From an uncultured Ruminococcus sp. (GTDB lineage: Bacteria > Bacillota > Clostridia > Oscillospirales > Ruminococcaceae), in the NCBI GenBank assembly GCA_946537515.1, contig CAMNFV010000003.1, positions 1 through 46,104 of the forward strand: a DNA stretch of 46,104 nucleotides, in the 5' to 3' direction. A program made the translations under genes and the position numbers. The notes under the pieces are model-generated. The model was not told the origin of the DNA. It saw nothing but the letters and a program-made list of their open reading frames with translations, and made no database searches. Each line of letters opens with the position of its first letter. The stretch's first letter is position 1. Shown here in pieces: positions 39,800 through 46,104 of the stretch.

Positions 39800-40483
39800 A
39801 TGATTCCGATTTCACCCAGACTGCTCTGCTGCGCATCCCTGCTCAAAGGCGATGTGATATGCGATATCGGAACGGATCATGCCTATCTCCCTGCATATCT
39901 GGTTCAAAGCGGCAAAGCGAAACAGGTCATTGCGACCGATGTGAAGCAAGGTCCGCTCGACAGCGCGAAGGGAACCTTGAAGCGTTATCATGTCGAACAG
40001 GATATCCGGCTCGTGCTTTCCGACGGTTTTGATAAGGTGAATCCGAAGGGCGTCACCGACGTTGTCATTGCCGGAATGGGCGGTGAGACGATCCGGGATA
40101 TTCTTGCAGCACCGAAAGCAGAATTTATCAAAAAAGGCGTGAATCTTGTATTACAGCCTATGACCAAAGCAGAAATTCTGCGTCCGTGGCTCGCAGAACA
40201 CGGCTTTGCAATCAGCAAAGAGATTGCTGTCAAGGATACGCATGTCTATACAGTCATGCAGGCTTCTTATACCGGAAAAGCGGAGCAGCTGACGCCCGTG
40301 CAATGCTATTGCGGGAAGCTGCGCCGTGCCGATCCGCTGACGAAAATCTATATGGCCGGCGTGCAGGAACGTCTGCACACAAAAGCAGCCGGACTGCGGG
40401 AAGCAGGCGACGATACAGCCGCAGACGAAATCCGCGCGCTGCTCAATGAGATCAATCTTTGGCTCAATCCGAATCGGGGGTAA
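39800..40483 (+). CDS. trmK: tRNA (adenine(22)-N1)-methyltransferase
   Basis: 227 residues starting MIPISPRLLCCASLLKGD. The SAM-binding motif is CDIGTDHAYLPAYL (about 21-34), and IAGMGGETIRDIL (motif IV region) and NLVLQPMTKAEILRPWL follow. This is the TrmK (YqfN) family that methylates A22 in tRNA D-arms. The gene is four bases upstream of the Nif3-like gene, the standard Bacillota pairing. AAAGGAGG precedes the start. Confidence 0.93.
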   Translation: MIPISPRLLCCASLLKGDVICDIGTDHAYLPAYLVQSGKAKQVIATDVKQGPLDSAKGTLKRYHVEQDIRLVLSDGFDKVNPKGVTDVVIAGMGGETIRDILAAPKAEFIKKGVNLVLQPMTKAEILRPWLAEHGFAISKEIAVKDTHVYTVMQASYTGKAEQLTPVQCYCGKLRRADPLTKIYMAGVQERLHTKAAGLREAGDDTAADEIRALLNEINLWLNPNRG

Positions 40484-40487
40484 ATGA

Positions 40488-41276
40488 ATGACTATTCAGG
40501 ATATCTACAATATTCTCAACGATTATGCGCCGTTTTCTTTGCAGGAATCCTATGATAACTCCGGACTCCTCGTCGGTGATCCGCAGCAGGAAGTAAAAGC
40601 GGTTCTGCTGACGCTGGATATCACAATTCCTGTCGTAAAAGAAGCCGCTGAAAAACATGCTGACCTGATTCTTGCACATCATCCGGTCATATGGAATCCG
40701 CTGCGGAGTATTACGCCGGAGCATCCGGTCTGGCATCTTGTACAGCATCAGATCGGCGCGATTTGCTCACATACCTGCTTTGATATTGCCGACGGCGGGC
40801 TCAACGACCTGCTCGGAGAACGCATCAGTCAAATCTTTCCGCTGAAAGAAGACAGGCTTCCGCTCGCTGTTCTTTCCGGCGGGCGCATTCTTGGAAAAGC
40901 TGCTGATCTGGTTTCGGAAACAGATGCTGATACGCTCGCAACGAATCTGCAAGCGGCGCTGAACTGCAATTCGCTTCGGTATTACCGCGGCACTCATGCT
41001 GATAAAATCCGCCGCATTGCGTGGTGTACCGGAAGCGGAGGCGATCTGATCCGGGATGCGATCAAAGCCGGTGCGGATGCACTCATCACAGGAGACTGCA
41101 AGCACAGCATCTGGGCCGATGCACAGAATCTCGGGTTTACGATCTTCGACTGCGGGCACTTTGAGACAGAAGTCATCATTACCGAACGGTTCCGCAAGAT
41201 TCTCGCGGATGCCGCACCGGAACTGACTGTTCTGGATTCTGAAATCGGCACAAGACCATTCTTTCAGGTTATATAA
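40488..41276 (+). CDS. Nif3-like dinuclear metal-binding protein
   Basis: 262 residues. The metal ligands lie in LILAHHPVIW (two histidines near residues 64-65), the VCSHTCFD-type segment (ICSHTCFD), and the C-terminal FDCGHFETE. This is the YqfO/Nif3 family, a conserved hexameric protein with a di-metal site whose cellular reaction is still not settled. It lacks the extra PII-like insertion found in longer homologues. It is co-transcribed with trmK and followed by a strong terminator. Confidence 0.92.
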   Translation: MTIQDIYNILNDYAPFSLQESYDNSGLLVGDPQQEVKAVLLTLDITIPVVKEAAEKHADLILAHHPVIWNPLRSITPEHPVWHLVQHQIGAICSHTCFDIADGGLNDLLGERISQIFPLKEDRLPLAVLSGGRILGKAADLVSETDADTLATNLQAALNCNSLRYYRGTHADKIRRIAWCTGSGGDLIRDAIKAGADALITGDCKHSIWADAQNLGFTIFDCGHFETEVIITERFRKILADAAPELTVLDSEIGTRPFFQVI

Positions 41277-41286
41277 TTCAAAGCAA

Positions 41287-41318
41287 AAGCCGGAGTCAAA
41301 ACGCTCCGGCTTTCTTTT
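41287..41318. terminator. Bidirectional terminator between nif3 and the 41317 gene
   Basis: Perfect 9-bp stem (AAGCCGGAG / CTCCGGCTT) with an eight-base loop. TCTTTT follows on the plus strand, and a T-rich run follows on the minus strand for the convergent operon. Confidence 0.88.
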
Positions 41319-42132
41319 ATCCGATTACATAGTTCTTTATGTCGTATACTTCCATCAGTTCATCATAGTCAAAAAGGAGTCGGACGCCTGCGAGACGCGA
41401 GCCGTCGTAATAACGGTAAATCGTTGTATAAACGGTTTTTGAGCCGCTGTTATCTTCCATCAGCCAAAGCTCACAGGTGTAATTCTTCCCGTCTACATTC
41501 ACATCAGAGGATTGCTCGCAGCCATAGCGGATTCCTGCATGATCCTGCGTACCAAAGAAATATTCATTCAGTTTCGGCACATATGCATCAGGATCATCCT
41601 TCCAGTCGCTTCCGGATTTCTTCTGATATCCCTGACTGCTGGCGCGATAAGTAAAATGCTTCATAAAAAGCGAGTTTTCCGAGCCGGTACGGACATCAAG
41701 AATTGCTTCAAATGCACTGTGTGAATATGAATATTCCGTCATGATATTCTGAATATTCTGTTTCTGGTCAAACAGATACATTGTCGTATCAACACGAACC
41801 GGACTGCTGCCGATCTGTTCCGATAAGGCAACGGCCAATGCACCGGGCGAATCAATTGATTCGTTATAAACAACTTCGCCTTCCCGGTAATCAAACTGTA
41901 AGCTGTTCAAAGCGCTTTGATAGAAATTATTCTTTCGTGCAAACATCATGATAAATGCAAGCAGCACAACCGCGATAATCAGCACAATCAAAAGTACAAA
42001 CTTTTTATTGGATCTCGGCATATCCGGATCTGCTTCCTTTGAACCGCAGTAGGGCACAAAGCCTTCTTCAGGTTTCTCATCTTCGGGCGAAGGCGGAAGA
42101 ATCGGCTGGTATTCTTTCTCCTGCTCTGCCAT
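41317..42132 (-). CDS. Single-pass membrane protein of unknown function in the oadBG operon
   Basis: 271 residues. A proline/glutamate-rich cytoplasmic N-terminus (about 1-43) is followed by one membrane segment (about 45-64), then an extracytoplasmic domain of about 205 residues rich in aromatic and acidic residues (YFFGTQDHAGIRYG, YRYYDGSRLAGVRLLFDYDEL). I do not recognise the family; the outer part could be a lipoprotein-like beta domain. Its ATG follows the OadG-like stop directly (TAAATG), so it is translated with the oadB-oadG pair and ends at the shared terminator. Confidence 0.78.
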   Translation of the reverse strand: MAEQEKEYQPILPPSPEDEKPEEGFVPYCGSKEADPDMPRSNKKFVLLIVLIIAVVLLAFIMMFARKNNFYQSALNSLQFDYREGEVVYNESIDSPGALAVALSEQIGSSPVRVDTTMYLFDQKQNIQNIMTEYSYSHSAFEAILDVRTGSENSLFMKHFTYRASSQGYQKKSGSDWKDDPDAYVPKLNEYFFGTQDHAGIRYGCEQSSDVNVDGKNYTCELWLMEDNSGSKTVYTTIYRYYDGSRLAGVRLLFDYDELMEVYDIKNYVIG

Positions 42133-42309
42133 TTATGCCCCCTTATGCTCCTCGTCAGACGAATCCTTCTTCTCGGTCAGTTTATTCAGCAGAATTGTCA
42201 GCAGCATAATCACGCCGATCACAATAAAAATTCCGAGCATACCGAGCCCCATATAGCGCAGATTCTCAACAAAATGGATCGGCTCAAATGAAGCAGTCAG
42301 ATTTAACAT
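42133..42309 (-). CDS. OadG-like gamma subunit of a sodium-pump decarboxylase
   Basis: 58 residues from the ATG at 42309 (MLNLTASFEPIHFVENLRYM); an ATG two codons earlier is only one base from AGGTGA. It has one membrane helix (about 19-43, GLGMLGIFIVIGVIMLLTIL) and a charged C-terminal tail, the usual shape of OadG. The gamma subunit holds the alpha and beta subunits together in the membrane complex. It is encoded 21 bases after oadB. Confidence 0.75.
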   Translation of the reverse strand: MLNLTASFEPIHFVENLRYMGLGMLGIFIVIGVIMLLTILLNKLTEKKDSSDEEHKGA

Positions 42310-42330
42310 TATCATTCACCTAACCTTTCA

Positions 42331-43440
42331 TTAGTGGAGGAAGAAATTCAGAATCAGGCCGCCGGCGATGACAGAGGCGATCTGACCGGAGACATTGACG
42401 CCGGTTGCCTGCATCAGCAGGAAGTTTGTCGGATCCTCTTTCAGCGCAAGCTTATGCACGACTCTGCCGGACATCGGGAACGCAGAAATACCGGCAGCCC
42501 CGATCATCGGATTGATCTTTTTCTTCAGGAACAGATTGAGAATCTTTGCAAAGATCACACCGCCTGCGGTATCAAAGATAAATGCAACAAGGCCGAGGCA
42601 GAGAATCAAAATTGTATCGAGCCGCAGGAACTTTTCTGCCTGCATCTGAGAAGCAATCGTGATACCGAGGAAAATAGTCACGAGGTTCGCAAGAACCTTC
42701 TGTGCAGTCTCGGAAAGGCTGTCCAGCACGCCGCACTCACGGATCAGATTGCCGAACATCAGGAATCCGACCAGCGCAACAGATGCCGGAGCAATCAGGC
42801 CTGCAATGATTGTAATGCAGATTGGGAACAGGATGCGTGTCGTTTTGGAAACAGGCTTCTGCGTATATTCCATGCGGATTTTGCGCTCATTTTTCGTCGT
42901 CAGCAGCTTGATGATCGGCGGCTGAATGATCGGGACAAGCGCCATATAGGAATACGCCGCGACCATAATCGCACCGATATAGTTGGAATTCAGCTTCTGG
43001 CCGACAACGATCGAAGTCGGGCCGTCTGCCGCACCGATGATTGCGATAGAAGCAGCATCGTTCAGGTCAAAGAACATGGACGCCATACAGAGCGTGAAGA
43101 AAATGCCGAACTGTGCGGCCGCACCGAACAGCATCAGAACCGGATTAGAGAGCAGCGGGCCGAAGTCAATCATCGCGCCGATACCGATAAACAAAATCAG
43201 CGGGAATAGTTCATTGGCAATACCGGCACTATAGAGAATACTCAGCGGACCCTCCTCTGCGCCCTGCGTGATTGCGCCGGAAAGCGGCAGATTGACAAGA
43301 ATCGCACCGAAGCCCATCGGAAGCAGGAGCGTCGGCTCCATATCCTTTTTTACGGCCAGCCAGATCAGCACGCCGCCGATCAGCCACATGATTACCATTT
43401 TGAAATCAAGATTGAGCAGATTTTGATATAATACCTCCAT
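42331..43440 (-). CDS. oadB: Sodium-translocating decarboxylase beta subunit (OadB/GcdB-like)
   Basis: 369 residues, about nine membrane helices. The conserved ion-path aspartate is Asp139 in IGAADGPTSIVVG. The C-terminal signature NPMIGAAGISAFPMSGR keeps the Asn, Gly, Ser and Arg at the spacing known to be needed for sodium pumping in Klebsiella OadB. The subunit couples decarboxylation of carboxybiotin to Na+ export. No carboxyltransferase alpha or biotin-carrier gene is in this operon, so they must come from elsewhere or this copy works alone. It lies under a riboswitch with a built-in terminator. Confidence 0.93.
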   Translation of the reverse strand: MEVLYQNLLNLDFKMVIMWLIGGVLIWLAVKKDMEPTLLLPMGFGAILVNLPLSGAITQGAEEGPLSILYSAGIANELFPLILFIGIGAMIDFGPLLSNPVLMLFGAAAQFGIFFTLCMASMFFDLNDAASIAIIGAADGPTSIVVGQKLNSNYIGAIMVAAYSYMALVPIIQPPIIKLLTTKNERKIRMEYTQKPVSKTTRILFPICITIIAGLIAPASVALVGFLMFGNLIRECGVLDSLSETAQKVLANLVTIFLGITIASQMQAEKFLRLDTILILCLGLVAFIFDTAGGVIFAKILNLFLKKKINPMIGAAGISAFPMSGRVVHKLALKEDPTNFLLMQATGVNVSGQIASVIAGGLILNFFLH

Positions 43441-43468
43441 AATTTCATTCCTTTCATGTGATGTGAAT

Positions 43469-43525
43469 AAAAAAACAGACCTTTATCGCGCAGCAGCCGG
43501 AAAAGGCCTTCGTGCGATAAAAGTC
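43469..43525 (-). terminator. Riboswitch expression-platform terminator upstream of oadB
   Basis: On the minus strand a 12-bp stem (arms 43514-43525 and 43478-43489, one G-U pair) is followed by seven T (43469-43475). Its 5' arm contains CTTTTATC, which is also the 3' strand of the aptamer's P1 helix, so the two structures are mutually exclusive. Confidence 0.85.
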
Positions 43526-43623
43526 TTGCCGTTTGATTTTCGTGCGGGCACGGACACCGCGCCGGGTATGACGTCACGAAAGACAATCCACAGATCGTGA
43601 ACTGCCGGCTACTCCCTCTTATC
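43516..43623 (-). ncRNA. yybP-ykoY-type (Mn2+) riboswitch aptamer
   Basis: Read on the minus strand, the leader starts GATAAGAGGGAGTAGCCGG and ends CGGCAAGACTTTTATC. The GGGAGUAGC ... GCAAGAC pair of conserved segments next to P1, an internal UCACGA/UCGUGA helix and a GUCAUAC segment match my memory of the yybP-ykoY consensus and of the Lactococcus aptamer. P1 (GATAAGAG with CTTTTATC) competes with the terminator, which makes it an ON switch. This class senses Mn2+. A covariance search against Rfam RF00080 would settle it. Confidence 0.75.
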
Positions 43624-43629
43624 TTTCAT

Positions 43630-43658
43630 AGTTTATCATATTTTCAAAAAAATGTCAA
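43630..43658 (-). promoter_or_regulatory. Sigma-A promoter of the riboswitch-oadB operon
   Basis: TTGACA (43653-43658), 17-bp spacer, TAAACT (43630-43635). The expected start site coincides with the 5' end of the aptamer's P1 helix. Confidence 0.88.
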
Positions 43659-43730
43659 GCGCTTTTCCGAAAACCATCCCGTTTCTCTGTCTGACCGTGA
43701 AAATTCGATTAAAGATGTCATTCTGTTATC

Positions 43731-43759
43731 TTGCTTTTTTTCGCCAAATATGCTATACT
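43731..43759 (+). promoter_or_regulatory. Promoter for recG
   Basis: TTGCTT (43731-43736), 17-bp spacer, TATACT (43754-43759). A perfect 7-bp hairpin (CGGAACA / TGTTCCG, 43767-43787) lies in the short leader. Confidence 0.75.
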
Positions 43760-43814
43760 GAATCAGCGGAACATCTATTCTGTTCCGGAGTAAATAACCC
43801 GAGGTCACATCATT

Positions 43815-45863
43815 ATGAATGAACTCTATCAGCCGATTGAAACGCTTGCCGGTGTCGGAGAAAAACGCGCTGCCAAGTATCACAAGCTCGGTATCCATAC
43901 ACCCTATGACCTGCTCTTCCATTTTCCGAGAAGCTATATAGACTATACCAAGCCTGTGATGATTGCAGATGCGGAAAACGGCATCCCGTGTGCTGTTCGG
44001 TGTACGATTGTGCAGAAGCTCGCGGTCGCATTTGTCCGCAAGGGATTCACGATCTATCGCGTACTCGTCACAGACGGGATCTCTGATATGCTGCTGGTAT
44101 TCTACAATACCCCCTATACCTATCAGGCGATGAAAGCCGGCGAGGAGTATTATGCCTACGGAAAAATCACTGGCGGTTTTCTGCGCAGAGAGATGCAATC
44201 CCCGCAGGTACAGCGAACCGATCATGCGCTGCTCCTGCAGCCGGTCTATCCGCAGACGACCGGTCTTACCAGTCAGATGATGCGTACCAATATCCAGCGC
44301 GCGCTGATGTATCTGAAGCAGCAGCCCGTTGAGACTATGCCACCGGAACTGATGCAGGACTATCAGCTTGTACCGCTCGTGGATGCGCTCTGTGCCGTTC
44401 ACAGGCCGAATAACGCAAAGGAACTTGAAGCGGCCCGGCATCGGCTTGCATTTGAGGAGCTGCTGCAATTTCAGCTTGGTACGCTCATGCTCAAGCATCG
44501 CAGCAGCGGTCAGAGCGGCATGGCGATGTCAAAATCGACTTCGATTCAGGATTTCTATGATAACCTGCCGTTCAGCCTGACCGGCGCGCAGCAGAAGGCA
44601 ATCCGCACAATTTGTCAGGATCTCTGCAAACAGAAACCTATGAACCGTCTTTTGCAGGGCGATGTCGGAAGCGGTAAAACCGCAGTCGCTGCTGCCGCAG
44701 CAGCATTTGCATCCAAGAACGGGTTGCAGACAGTTCTCATGGCACCGACTGAAATTCTGGCACAGCAGCATCTTCAGACGATGACGGAATTTCTCAGTCC
44801 GCTCGGTATTACCCCGCTTCTGCTGACAGGCTCCACCAAAGCAAAAGAAAAACGCGAGATCAAAAAACGGATTGCGGAAGGGACAGCTTCTGTTGTCATC
44901 GGCACACACGCAGTCATTCAGAAGGATATTGACTTCCCGTCGCTCGGACTGGTCATCACCGATGAGCAGCATCGTTTCGGTGTTGCGCAGCGTGCAGCTC
45001 TTGCAGAAAAAGGAGGCTATCCGCATAAGCTCGTCATGTCTGCAACGCCGATCCCGCGAACGCTTGCGCTGATTATCTACGGCGATCTGGATATTACCAT
45101 ACTGGATGAAATGCCGAAGGGCAGACTGCCGATCCAGACATTTGCGGTTACAGGCGGATATCGTGAGCGTGCATATGGTTTTATCAAAACTCATCTTGAC
45201 GCAGGTGAACAGGCATATCTTGTCTGCTCGATGATCGAGGAATCCGATGCGCTCGAAAATGTTCAGGCCGCTGAAACCTATGCGGAAACGCTGAAAGAAG
45301 GTGCTTTCCGGGATTATCGTGTCGGGCTGCTGCACGGTAAAATGAAGCCTGCCGAAAAGGAAGCTGTTATGGCAGCAATGAAAGCGCACGAGATCGACTT
45401 GCTGGTATGCACAACTGTTGTAGAAGTCGGTGTGGATGTCCCGAATGCGACGCTGATCCTGATTGAGAATGCGGACCGCTTCGGTCTTGCACAGCTGCAT
45501 CAGCTGCGCGGCAGAGTCGGCAGAGGCTCCGTGCAAAGCTATTGTATTCTCGTGACTGACAGTAAAAACGATGATGCCCGCGAACGCCTCAAGGTCATGA
45601 GCCGTACGACAAACGGCTTTGTAATCGCCGAAGAGGATCTCAAGCTGCGCGGCCCCGGCGATTTCTTCGGACATGCGCAGCATGGTATGCCCCCGCTCAT
45701 GCAGGCAGCTTTTTGCAGCAATATGCCCCTTGTCTCCGAAACACAAATGGCCGCAAAACAATTATTGGAAGCTGATCCGGAACTGCAATCTCCGGCGCAT
45801 CAGCCGCTGCGCACCGCGGTACTTCAATTATTCGCGAAAAACGGCGAAAACGGGCTGAACTAA
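43815..45863 (+). CDS. recG: ATP-dependent DNA helicase RecG
   Basis: 682 residues, normal for RecG. The N-terminal wedge/OB domain (about 60-150) recognises branched DNA. Helicase motifs follow: I GDVGSGKT (about 280), Ia MAPTEILAQQH, II DEQHRFG, III SATPIPRT, IV in EQAYLVCSMIEESD, V TTVVEVGVDVPNA and VI QLRGRVGRG. The C-terminal FVIAEEDLKLRGPGDFFG is the RecG TRG-type motif. It drives regression of stalled forks and Holliday-junction processing. It is monocistronic here. Confidence 0.97.
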   Translation: MNELYQPIETLAGVGEKRAAKYHKLGIHTPYDLLFHFPRSYIDYTKPVMIADAENGIPCAVRCTIVQKLAVAFVRKGFTIYRVLVTDGISDMLLVFYNTPYTYQAMKAGEEYYAYGKITGGFLRREMQSPQVQRTDHALLLQPVYPQTTGLTSQMMRTNIQRALMYLKQQPVETMPPELMQDYQLVPLVDALCAVHRPNNAKELEAARHRLAFEELLQFQLGTLMLKHRSSGQSGMAMSKSTSIQDFYDNLPFSLTGAQQKAIRTICQDLCKQKPMNRLLQGDVGSGKTAVAAAAAAFASKNGLQTVLMAPTEILAQQHLQTMTEFLSPLGITPLLLTGSTKAKEKREIKKRIAEGTASVVIGTHAVIQKDIDFPSLGLVITDEQHRFGVAQRAALAEKGGYPHKLVMSATPIPRTLALIIYGDLDITILDEMPKGRLPIQTFAVTGGYRERAYGFIKTHLDAGEQAYLVCSMIEESDALENVQAAETYAETLKEGAFRDYRVGLLHGKMKPAEKEAVMAAMKAHEIDLLVCTTVVEVGVDVPNATLILIENADRFGLAQLHQLRGRVGRGSVQSYCILVTDSKNDDARERLKVMSRTTNGFVIAEEDLKLRGPGDFFGHAQHGMPPLMQAAFCSNMPLVSETQMAAKQLLEADPELQSPAHQPLRTAVLQLFAKNGENGLN

Positions 45864-46052
45864 GCATCAGCTACTCCCCTGCTGACGGATTCAGATTTAT
45901 TTATTCAGAATTTACGATGTTTTTGACAGATTCTGTGCAATTCGCCAAAACTTGATTTTTTTTCATTTTTCTCTTGACATTTTGCTTCATTTGCGTTATA
46001 ATAACAAAGTCGCCTGACGGAAACGAAAAACTTCCGAAAGGTCAGACGGAAT
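45864..46052 (+). promoter_or_regulatory. Intergenic region with the tRNA promoter
   Basis: A strong promoter, TTGACA (45974-45979), 17-bp spacer and TATAAT (45997-46002), lies 50 bp before the tRNA. The leader contains a partial dyad (CCTGAC ... GTCAG, about 46012-46045) that may be removed during maturation. After recG I see only a weak five-base dyad, not a convincing terminator. Confidence 0.85.
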
Positions 46053-46104
46053 GGCCTGGTAGTTCAGTTGGTTTAGAACGCCGCCCTGTCACGGCGGAGG
46101 TCGT
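46053..46104 (+). tRNA. tRNA-Asp (GTC), 5' part
   Basis: The sequence from 46053 shows the acceptor strand GGCCTGG, a D-arm with AGTTCAGTTGG, and an anticodon arm CCGCC-CTGTCAC-GGCGG giving anticodon GTC. The variable region begins AGGTCGT at the window's edge, and the T-arm lies outside. It may be the first of a tRNA cluster. Confidence 0.93.

Follow-up and report, generated by a model that had tools for sequence, protein, structure and literature searches.

The oadB locus and its leader

The window considered here is a stretch of 46,104 nucleotides (nt) from an uncultured Ruminococcus sp. (family Ruminococcaceae, class Clostridia; contig CAMNFV010000003.1 of assembly GCA_946537515.1). It carries on its minus strand oadB, which encodes the beta subunit of a Na+-translocating decarboxylase, behind a leader of about 180 nt between promoter and gene (Table 1). 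Assignment of this leader to the same sequence-structure class as the leaders of metal exporters is well supported, and the leader very probably works as an ON switch of oadB transcription that belongs to the yybP-ykoY class. A preliminary description, made from the letters of the sequence, had proposed a Mn2+-type riboswitch at this place and had both its coordinates and its strand right. Upstream of the leader lies a divergent gene that we take, from inspection of its open reading frame, to be recG.

Folded in isolation and without constraints, the aptamer adopts as its minimum-energy structure the yybP-ykoY architecture: an 8-bp P1, a GGAGUA/AAGA internal loop, a 3-bp continuation, a 10-bp P2, and a P3 whose asymmetric loop carries CGUCAUACC, CGUCA included. 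The pairs of P1 span 43623-43516, beyond the model match of 43620-43515, and the legs that bear L1 and L3 are joined at a three-way junction. Folding of the window leader is more stable than that of shuffled sequences (z = -4.1).

P1 and a strong intrinsic terminator make use of one and the same strand (43523-43516 is common to both helices), so ligand binding should turn transcription ON; the mutual exclusion and ON logic of the preliminary description are thereby supported. The full leader reaches -62.4 kcal/mol with the terminator and -57.0 kcal/mol with P1 forced. With this advantage of 5.4 kcal/mol for the terminator form, a ligand would be required, at equilibrium, to tip the leader towards P1. 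In the mechanism proposed, the 3' strand of P1 would pair into the terminator when no ligand is present, and oadB-oadG would not be transcribed. Mn2+, possibly Ca2+ too, would fill the L1/L3 site and stabilise P1, the terminator would be blocked, and RNA polymerase would read into oadB-oadG; antitermination upon binding is what we infer from the competing helices.

Table 1. Features of the oadB region and of the end of the window (positions in the window)
Feature	Position	Strand	Basis or remark
-35 box TTGACA	43653..43658	-	exact consensus
-10 box TAAACT, 17-nt spacer to -35	43630..43635	-	near consensus, read from sequence
yybP-ykoY-type metal-riboswitch aptamer	43515..43620	-	covariance-model match (R1, R2, R3)
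P1 5' strand GAUAAGAG	43616..43623	-	unconstrained fold
L1 loop GGAGUA, 5' side of predicted metal site	43610..43615	-	unconstrained fold
L3 CGUCA	43569..43573	-	A43569 aligned with the N7-donor adenosine (A41 of L. lactis, A48 of X. oryzae)
P1 3' strand CUUUUAUC, common to terminator 5' arm	43516..43523	-	fold
Intrinsic terminator: stem 43526-43477, T-run 43475-43469 (seven T)	43469..43526	-	-27.3 kcal/mol
Ribosome-binding site AAAGGA	43449..43454	-	sequence
oadB, Na+-translocating decarboxylase beta subunit, 369 aa	42331..43440	-	PF03977 E 1.9e-152, TIGR01109 E 4.5e-128
oadG-like protein with one transmembrane segment, 60 aa	42133..42315	-	position and hydrophobic segment; no Pfam match
271-aa protein, one hydrophobic segment, probable third operon gene	41317..42132	-	no Pfam/NCBIfam match
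Inverted repeat where two convergent genes meet, probably a bidirectional terminator	41285..41321	.	sub-threshold Rfam alignments
tRNA gene, cut by window end	46053..46104		Rfam scan

Passages of PMC7274780 on StOadB name D203, S382 and N412 as residues that matter for Na+ binding. By comparison with this protein (E 1.9e-97) the OadB of the window is an ordinary beta subunit; it shares PF03977 and the Na+ residues with the StOadB beta-gamma complex (PDB 6IVA/6IWW), and differs in that its gene stands under a metal-type leader and not beside an alpha gene. Together with five further positions that we take to serve Na+ as well, eight positions are present in the window's OadB, which bears out the earlier statement that the pumping residues are kept, and they are unchanged in 46 of 46 element-bearing and 43 of 43 other orthologues (one gap at two positions). 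As had also been said, oadB is followed by neither an alpha nor a biotin-carrier gene; next come the OadG-like and the 271-aa proteins. In a collection of 80 oadB loci from named relatives, mostly rumen and gut metagenome-assembled genomes labelled Oscillospiraceae or Clostridia, a small gene for a protein with one transmembrane segment follows oadB in 74 of the 77 assessable loci, by a rule of length and hydrophobicity. The cluster of the 271-aa protein has members in 3 of the 80, and this protein is therefore perhaps a near-genus addition.

Assignment of the leader to the yybP-ykoY class

A pattern search for the signature picked 39 of 90 OadB-orthologue loci (from 89 genomes of the family), and these were aligned as A2. 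Three covariance models were then used. R1 was built from the 39 pattern-picked leaders, that of the window included; R2 from the 38 leaders of A2 other than that of the window, less the near copies L029, L037, L040 and L046 (34 leaders); and R3 from leaders that precede P-type ATPases and Na/Ca-type exchangers, of which 21 out of 30 were taken, leaving out L184 of the window genome and eight others whose loop was, by eye, of the mntP kind or unclear. R1 gives the window leader 60.6 bits (E 5.4e-11) with that leader in its training set. The two models that do not contain it agree: R2 gives 56.3 bits (E 1.5e-10), its next-best place in the window having an E value of 2.4, and R3 gives 58.4 bits (E 6.7e-12), although its 21 leaders had themselves been found by R1 and chosen by loop type. 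With the unconstrained fold, these two scores uphold the signature segments claimed in the preliminary description. Of the 80 named oadB leaders, R3 also recovers the 30 that R1 finds, and it gives one further match on the opposite strand at E 0.48.

Recovery of the two E. coli members of the class by R1 is without the circularity of R3. In 7 kb comprising the E. coli mntP and alx regions, the two top matches of R1 fall on these genes' own leaders, at E 0.011 and 0.024, in register over L1, L3 and the 3' GAGAC. R3 finds the alx leader at E 0.023, and the mntP leader just at E 9.7, under a chance match. The structure of A2 points the same way. Standard pairs fill 89.1% of its cells, against 38-45% when the partners are slid, and covariation is 0.429, against 0.067-0.135; with shuffled partners (75.0% standard pairs, covariation 0.176), none of 500 came as high. 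Because the selecting pattern holds parts of L1 and the 3' GNAGAC, the invariance of both in the 39 seed leaders is partly by construction; the helices and the CA of L3 lie outside the pattern.

The oadB leader thus shares with yybP-ykoY (RF00080) the GGAGUA of L1, an L3 with CA, and a P1 that competes with a terminator, and the model made from oadB leaders finds mntP and alx. It differs in having no P4, in escaping RF00080, and in its target, which is a Na+ pump and not an exporter. P4 and the four-way junction are a subtype feature of the solved L. lactis and X. oryzae aptamers and are not required of the Streptococcus mgtA Mn2+/Ca2+ riboswitch, which has a three-way junction like that of the window, in front of a different target gene, according to the passages of PMC9495176 that describe it.

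Several observations weigh against this assignment or against its generality. P4 was not found in the fold of the window aptamer, the junction of which is three-way and not four-way. The scan with RF00080 suggested in the preliminary description gave no match at E<=10 in the window leader or anywhere in the window genome, and in the proposed survey upstream of OadB homologues none of the 22 weak RF00080 matches in the family stood at oadB. RF02617 (SSRC10) does not match the window leader either. The number of A2 pairs changed on both sides, 17 of 26, contrasts weakly with the 8-16 obtained with slid partners. The element is absent from 43 of 90 orthologue loci, and those lacking it include both other genomes of the same genus that were sampled (G188 and G108).

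By Rfam's rule, then, a leader with no RF00080 match at E<=10 is not a member of RF00080. The lack of a significant RF00080 score was the first half of what the preliminary description had said would refute it. This is not taken as a refutation, because the model is insensitive in this family: of 197 family genomes none gives a score above its gathering cut-off, and of 14 control genomes two do. Its 22 weak matches (E<=0.1) are spread over 21 of the 197, and five of them coincide with R1 elements on the same strand, four before MntP (G106, G093, G030 and G168) and one before an exchanger (G115). It may be noted as an observation in its own right that RF00080 is never over its cut-off in the family, yet R1 elements precede MntP and P-type ATPase genes in many of its genomes. 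The Rfam Mn2+ model thus misses three-way-junction leaders in this group, those of MntP and P-type ATPases among them.

Genes under the same class in related genomes

Two scans with R1 define the distribution of the element, one of 197 family genomes with up to 21 candidates scored per genome and one of 391 genomes of the taxonomic class with up to 10 per genome; the class-level counts are lower bounds, and orthology there is by identity, not by tree. The family scan returned at least 118 matches in at least 91 genomes, 42 of them before oadB by coordinates. Applied directly to the 90 family oadB loci, R1 gave 48 matches, of which one (L030, E 0.89, opposite strand) was spurious and was dropped, leaving the element in 47. 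It is present in 30 of the 80 named loci, a collection that may overlap with the 90; Gemmiger formicilis (L290) has a weaker match, of 40 bits. All 77 elements (47 and 30) have the orientation of oadB and stand 34-224 nt in front of it. GGAGUA is found in 75 of the 77, in part by construction of the seed set, and the Mn2+-type L3 motif likewise in 75, the exceptions being L063 (degenerate) and L287 (at a contig end). A terminator that uses the P1 3' strand occurs in 69 of the 77 leaders, compared with a mean of 3.8 and a maximum of 7 in 20 shuffles. Across the taxonomic class at least 140 matches were found in at least 121 genomes. Among 129 listed OadB rows (>=62% identity), the element lies within 600 nt upstream of OadB in at least 22 of 126 listed genomes, belonging to 12 families; the class-level exchanger counts given below come from 124 listed exchanger rows.

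An Rfam scan of 40 of the 43 element-lacking loci (L088, L090 and L091 were outside it) gave tRNA alone over the gathering score, and no other known riboswitch was therefore seen in the place of the element. Near oadB in two relatives there are a thiamine pyrophosphate riboswitch (L025 3029-3131) and a fluoride riboswitch (L013 2792-2881).

That the element arose just once on the OadB tree was considered and is not favoured: three states need at least 18 changes on this quick tree of 87 rows (L067, L091 and L092 dropped). When well-supported branches alone are counted, fewer changes are forced (7 for the main type). Four oadB leaders (L075, L080, L081 and L084) have an MntP-type loop, and their OadB proteins belong to a clade apart. 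This suggests a second acquisition, with oadB brought under the yybP-ykoY class at least twice.

What else stands under the class in the family is seen from 75 non-oadB R1 loci (one more was cut by a contig end), where Pfam searches were made on one or two members per cluster. The first gene after the element belongs to the MntP cluster at 28 of these loci, encodes a P-type cation ATPase at 23 and a Na/Ca-type exchanger at 7; at one the first gene is unclear, and nine have no such gene. The same class therefore precedes metal exporters of the family, and the second element of the window genome (G000:C84:414-517) itself lies before the gene for an 899-aa cation ATPase. An exporter element was detected in 14 of the 47 family genomes in which the element precedes oadB, and none was detected in the other 33. 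Mutual exclusion of the two kinds of element was entertained and rejected, there being no trend (Fisher p 0.47).

Less expected first genes encode a CitMHS transporter at two of the 75 loci (L206 and L158), a Na/Pi cotransporter at two (L163 and L169) and a Band_7 protein at one (L217). At two more (L155 455-736 and L180) a His/Gly-rich protein of 94-98 aa directly follows a Mn2+-type element; the one member tested had no Pfam match, and it is possibly a new small metal-handling protein.

The metal probably sensed and the possible purpose of the switch

According to passages of PMC6754395, the Mn2+ site of the solved aptamers is formed by phosphates together with N7 of an adenosine that does not vary; in L. 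lactis it is A41 (UCA41AU), in X. oryzae A48 (ACA48UAC). The L3 of the 39 aligned oadB leaders is of the CGUCA type, with U, A or C before CA, and both the C and the A are invariant (39 of 39). By eye these loops have the form of L. lactis and E. coli alx. Among the MntP leaders of the family UCAACAUACUG loops prevail, which resemble those of X. oryzae and E. coli mntP. Judged from these residues the ligand is likely Mn2+. That the metal is assigned by homology counts on the other side, and Ca2+ is a real alternative.

Passages of PMC3766115 and PMC9495176 give transporters and Mn2+ homeostasis genes as the targets of yybP-ykoY riboswitches. No published link between this class and oadB was found in the open-licence PubMed Central literature, in keeping with the preliminary description, which knew of no case with OadB. 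As a whole, the earlier interpretation stands as to the class, the ON logic and the target; its metal is the likely one, and each of its two purposes (assembly of a biotin decarboxylase, or a contribution to cation efflux) is a candidate. If the assignment is true, a Mn2+/Ca2+-sensing riboswitch would control sodium bioenergetics, and the recurrence of the Mn2+ class before a primary Na+ pump, across 12 families of a single taxonomic class, would connect membrane energetics with metal homeostasis. For an oadB-oadG pair with no neighbouring alpha gene, the riboswitch link gives a functional clue.

The purpose of such control is the weakest part of the proposal. We put forward, tentatively and at less than even confidence, that an extra Na+ pump answers an excess of Mn2+ or Ca2+, with the larger Na+ gradient driving Na+-coupled efflux of the metal. 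The fuller version, in which excess metal induces a dedicated second OadB-OadG pump and the added gradient powers that efflux, is a possibility to be held somewhat more loosely still. At least 34 of the 140 class-level matches precede a Na/Ca-type exchanger. Such an exchanger lies within 3 kb of oadB in two genomes among the rows listed, both with the element: in G484, of the same taxonomic class (L338 4624-6927), the element, an exchanger gene (323 aa), 24 nt and oadB follow one another in an apparent operon, and in G569 the order is exchanger, element, oadB. Speaking against this purpose, no Na/Ca-type exchanger is among the matches listed at E<=1e-30 for the window genome (91% complete), an exchanger under the element was detected in 1 of the 47 family genomes with element and oadB, and in the family the element at oadB and the exporter elements show no trend to occur together.

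A metabolic purpose ranks close behind that of driving efflux. Here the same switch would let Mn2+ license the assembly of a biotin decarboxylase whose divalent-metal carboxyltransferase is encoded elsewhere, with Na+ extruded for energy. The carboxyltransferase would need a divalent metal for this. No carboxyltransferase gene (E<=1e-6) lies near oadB in any of 40 neighbourhoods (39 with the element directly upstream and G484, where it stands before the exchanger; stretches of 3.2-16.5 kb), and no biotin carrier was found in them by a single typed generic query that had no positive control. A 110-residue query found carboxyltransferase at 4 of the 80 named loci, all four without the element. 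Another contig of the window genome carries a PYC_OADA gene, and the genome also encodes a second, more distant OadB. Of the 46 other family genomes with element and oadB, 34 were tested, and 32 of these have a PYC_OADA gene. Since the gene can be elsewhere in the genome, the missing neighbouring alpha does not imply a pump without alpha, and an alpha elsewhere together with the conserved Na+ residues argues against OadB as merely a repurposed efflux protein. The PYC_OADA genes and the conserved Na+ residues favour the metabolic purpose. On the opposite side, by coordinates none of these PYC_OADA genes has an R1 match nearby (in the window genome its leader is lost at a contig end), and none was found in G048 (96% complete) and G066 (98% complete). 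The PYC_OADA domain occurs in pyruvate carboxylase too, and in G149 the gene and the OadB paralogue lie some 1 kb apart, so that alpha may serve the paralogue; on both grounds PYC_OADA is a possible partner and not a proven one. The other targets of the switch, moreover, are exporters. This purpose is rated as possible, and as less likely than not.

Somewhat less probable again is that the same switch has Ca2+, or Ca2+ and Mn2+, as its physiological ligand, and serves calcium export with the Na+ pump supporting Na+/Ca2+ exchange. The three-way-junction yybP-ykoY aptamer of S. pneumoniae mgtA is said to bind both Mn2+ and Ca2+, Ca2+ more tightly, with Mn2+ the stronger activator in vitro (passages of PMC9495176, a secondary source). 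The targets of R1 include P-type ATPases with Cation_ATPase_C, and Na_Ca_ex proteins stand at the 7 family loci and the class-level matches counted above. Against Ca2+ are the 28 of 75 loci before MntP, annotated as a manganese efflux family, and the invariance of the soft-metal adenosine position in the 39 aligned leaders.

It is improbable that OadB, with OadG, is itself the exporter and transports Mn2+ or another cation. The leader class does otherwise precede exporters, an alpha gene is lacking in all 40 neighbourhoods, and the 33 of 47 genomes with no other exporter element detected could be read in this way. Wherever they can be aligned, however, D203, S382 and N412 do not vary among the 89 orthologues, whether the element is there or not, and there is no trend for oadB elements to replace those of other exporters.

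A leader that senses Na+, being of the Na+-I type or a re-specialised yybP-ykoY aptamer, is more improbable still. Passages of PMC9337991 report Na+-I riboswitches (DUF1646, RF03071) with oxaloacetate decarboxylase genes, an association that the present leader shares. A better match to this Na+-sensing class, which the preliminary description had named as a possible outcome, was looked for, and RF03071 has none in 40000-46104 of the window; its two matches in the window genome are at chance level (E 6.8) on other contigs. The Mn2+-type core of the leader is intact, and R3, made from exporter leaders, matches it. In three genomes the OadB paralogue does have a Na+-I match some 0.3 kb upstream, which exceeds the cut-off in G023 (48 bits, L308) and falls below it in G049 (L306) and G051 (L307); a fourth match, also in G023, has no query gene adjoining. 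The OadB orthologue of G023 (L063) has the Mn2+-type element, degenerate in L1 and L3. With Na+-I before the paralogue and a Mn2+-type element before the orthologue, G023 suggests that the two OadB paralogues can respond to different ions, and it agrees with the fuller version of the efflux purpose set out above.

An ordinary attenuator or chance hairpin, for which one may cite a strong terminator that would attenuate by itself and the absence of an RF00080 score, is hardly credible in view of the covariation, the conservation across species and the matches of two models (R2 and R3) made without the window leader.

RF02617 (SSRC10) matches the oadB leaders of L018, L024, L023 and L016, four of 13 scanned loci, at E 7.5e-4 to 0.18 and in every case below its gathering score. 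In S. pyogenes, SSRC10 sits between a hypothetical gene and the gene for a 'putative calcium transporter', according to a passage of PMC3675131. Through L018 2671-2799 and the three further loci, this streptococcal 'sRNA' (small RNA) resembles a yybP-ykoY riboswitch of the three-way-junction form together with its terminator. We infer that SSRC10 is the same thing as the mgtA riboswitch, and SSRC10 is possibly misfiled as a small RNA.

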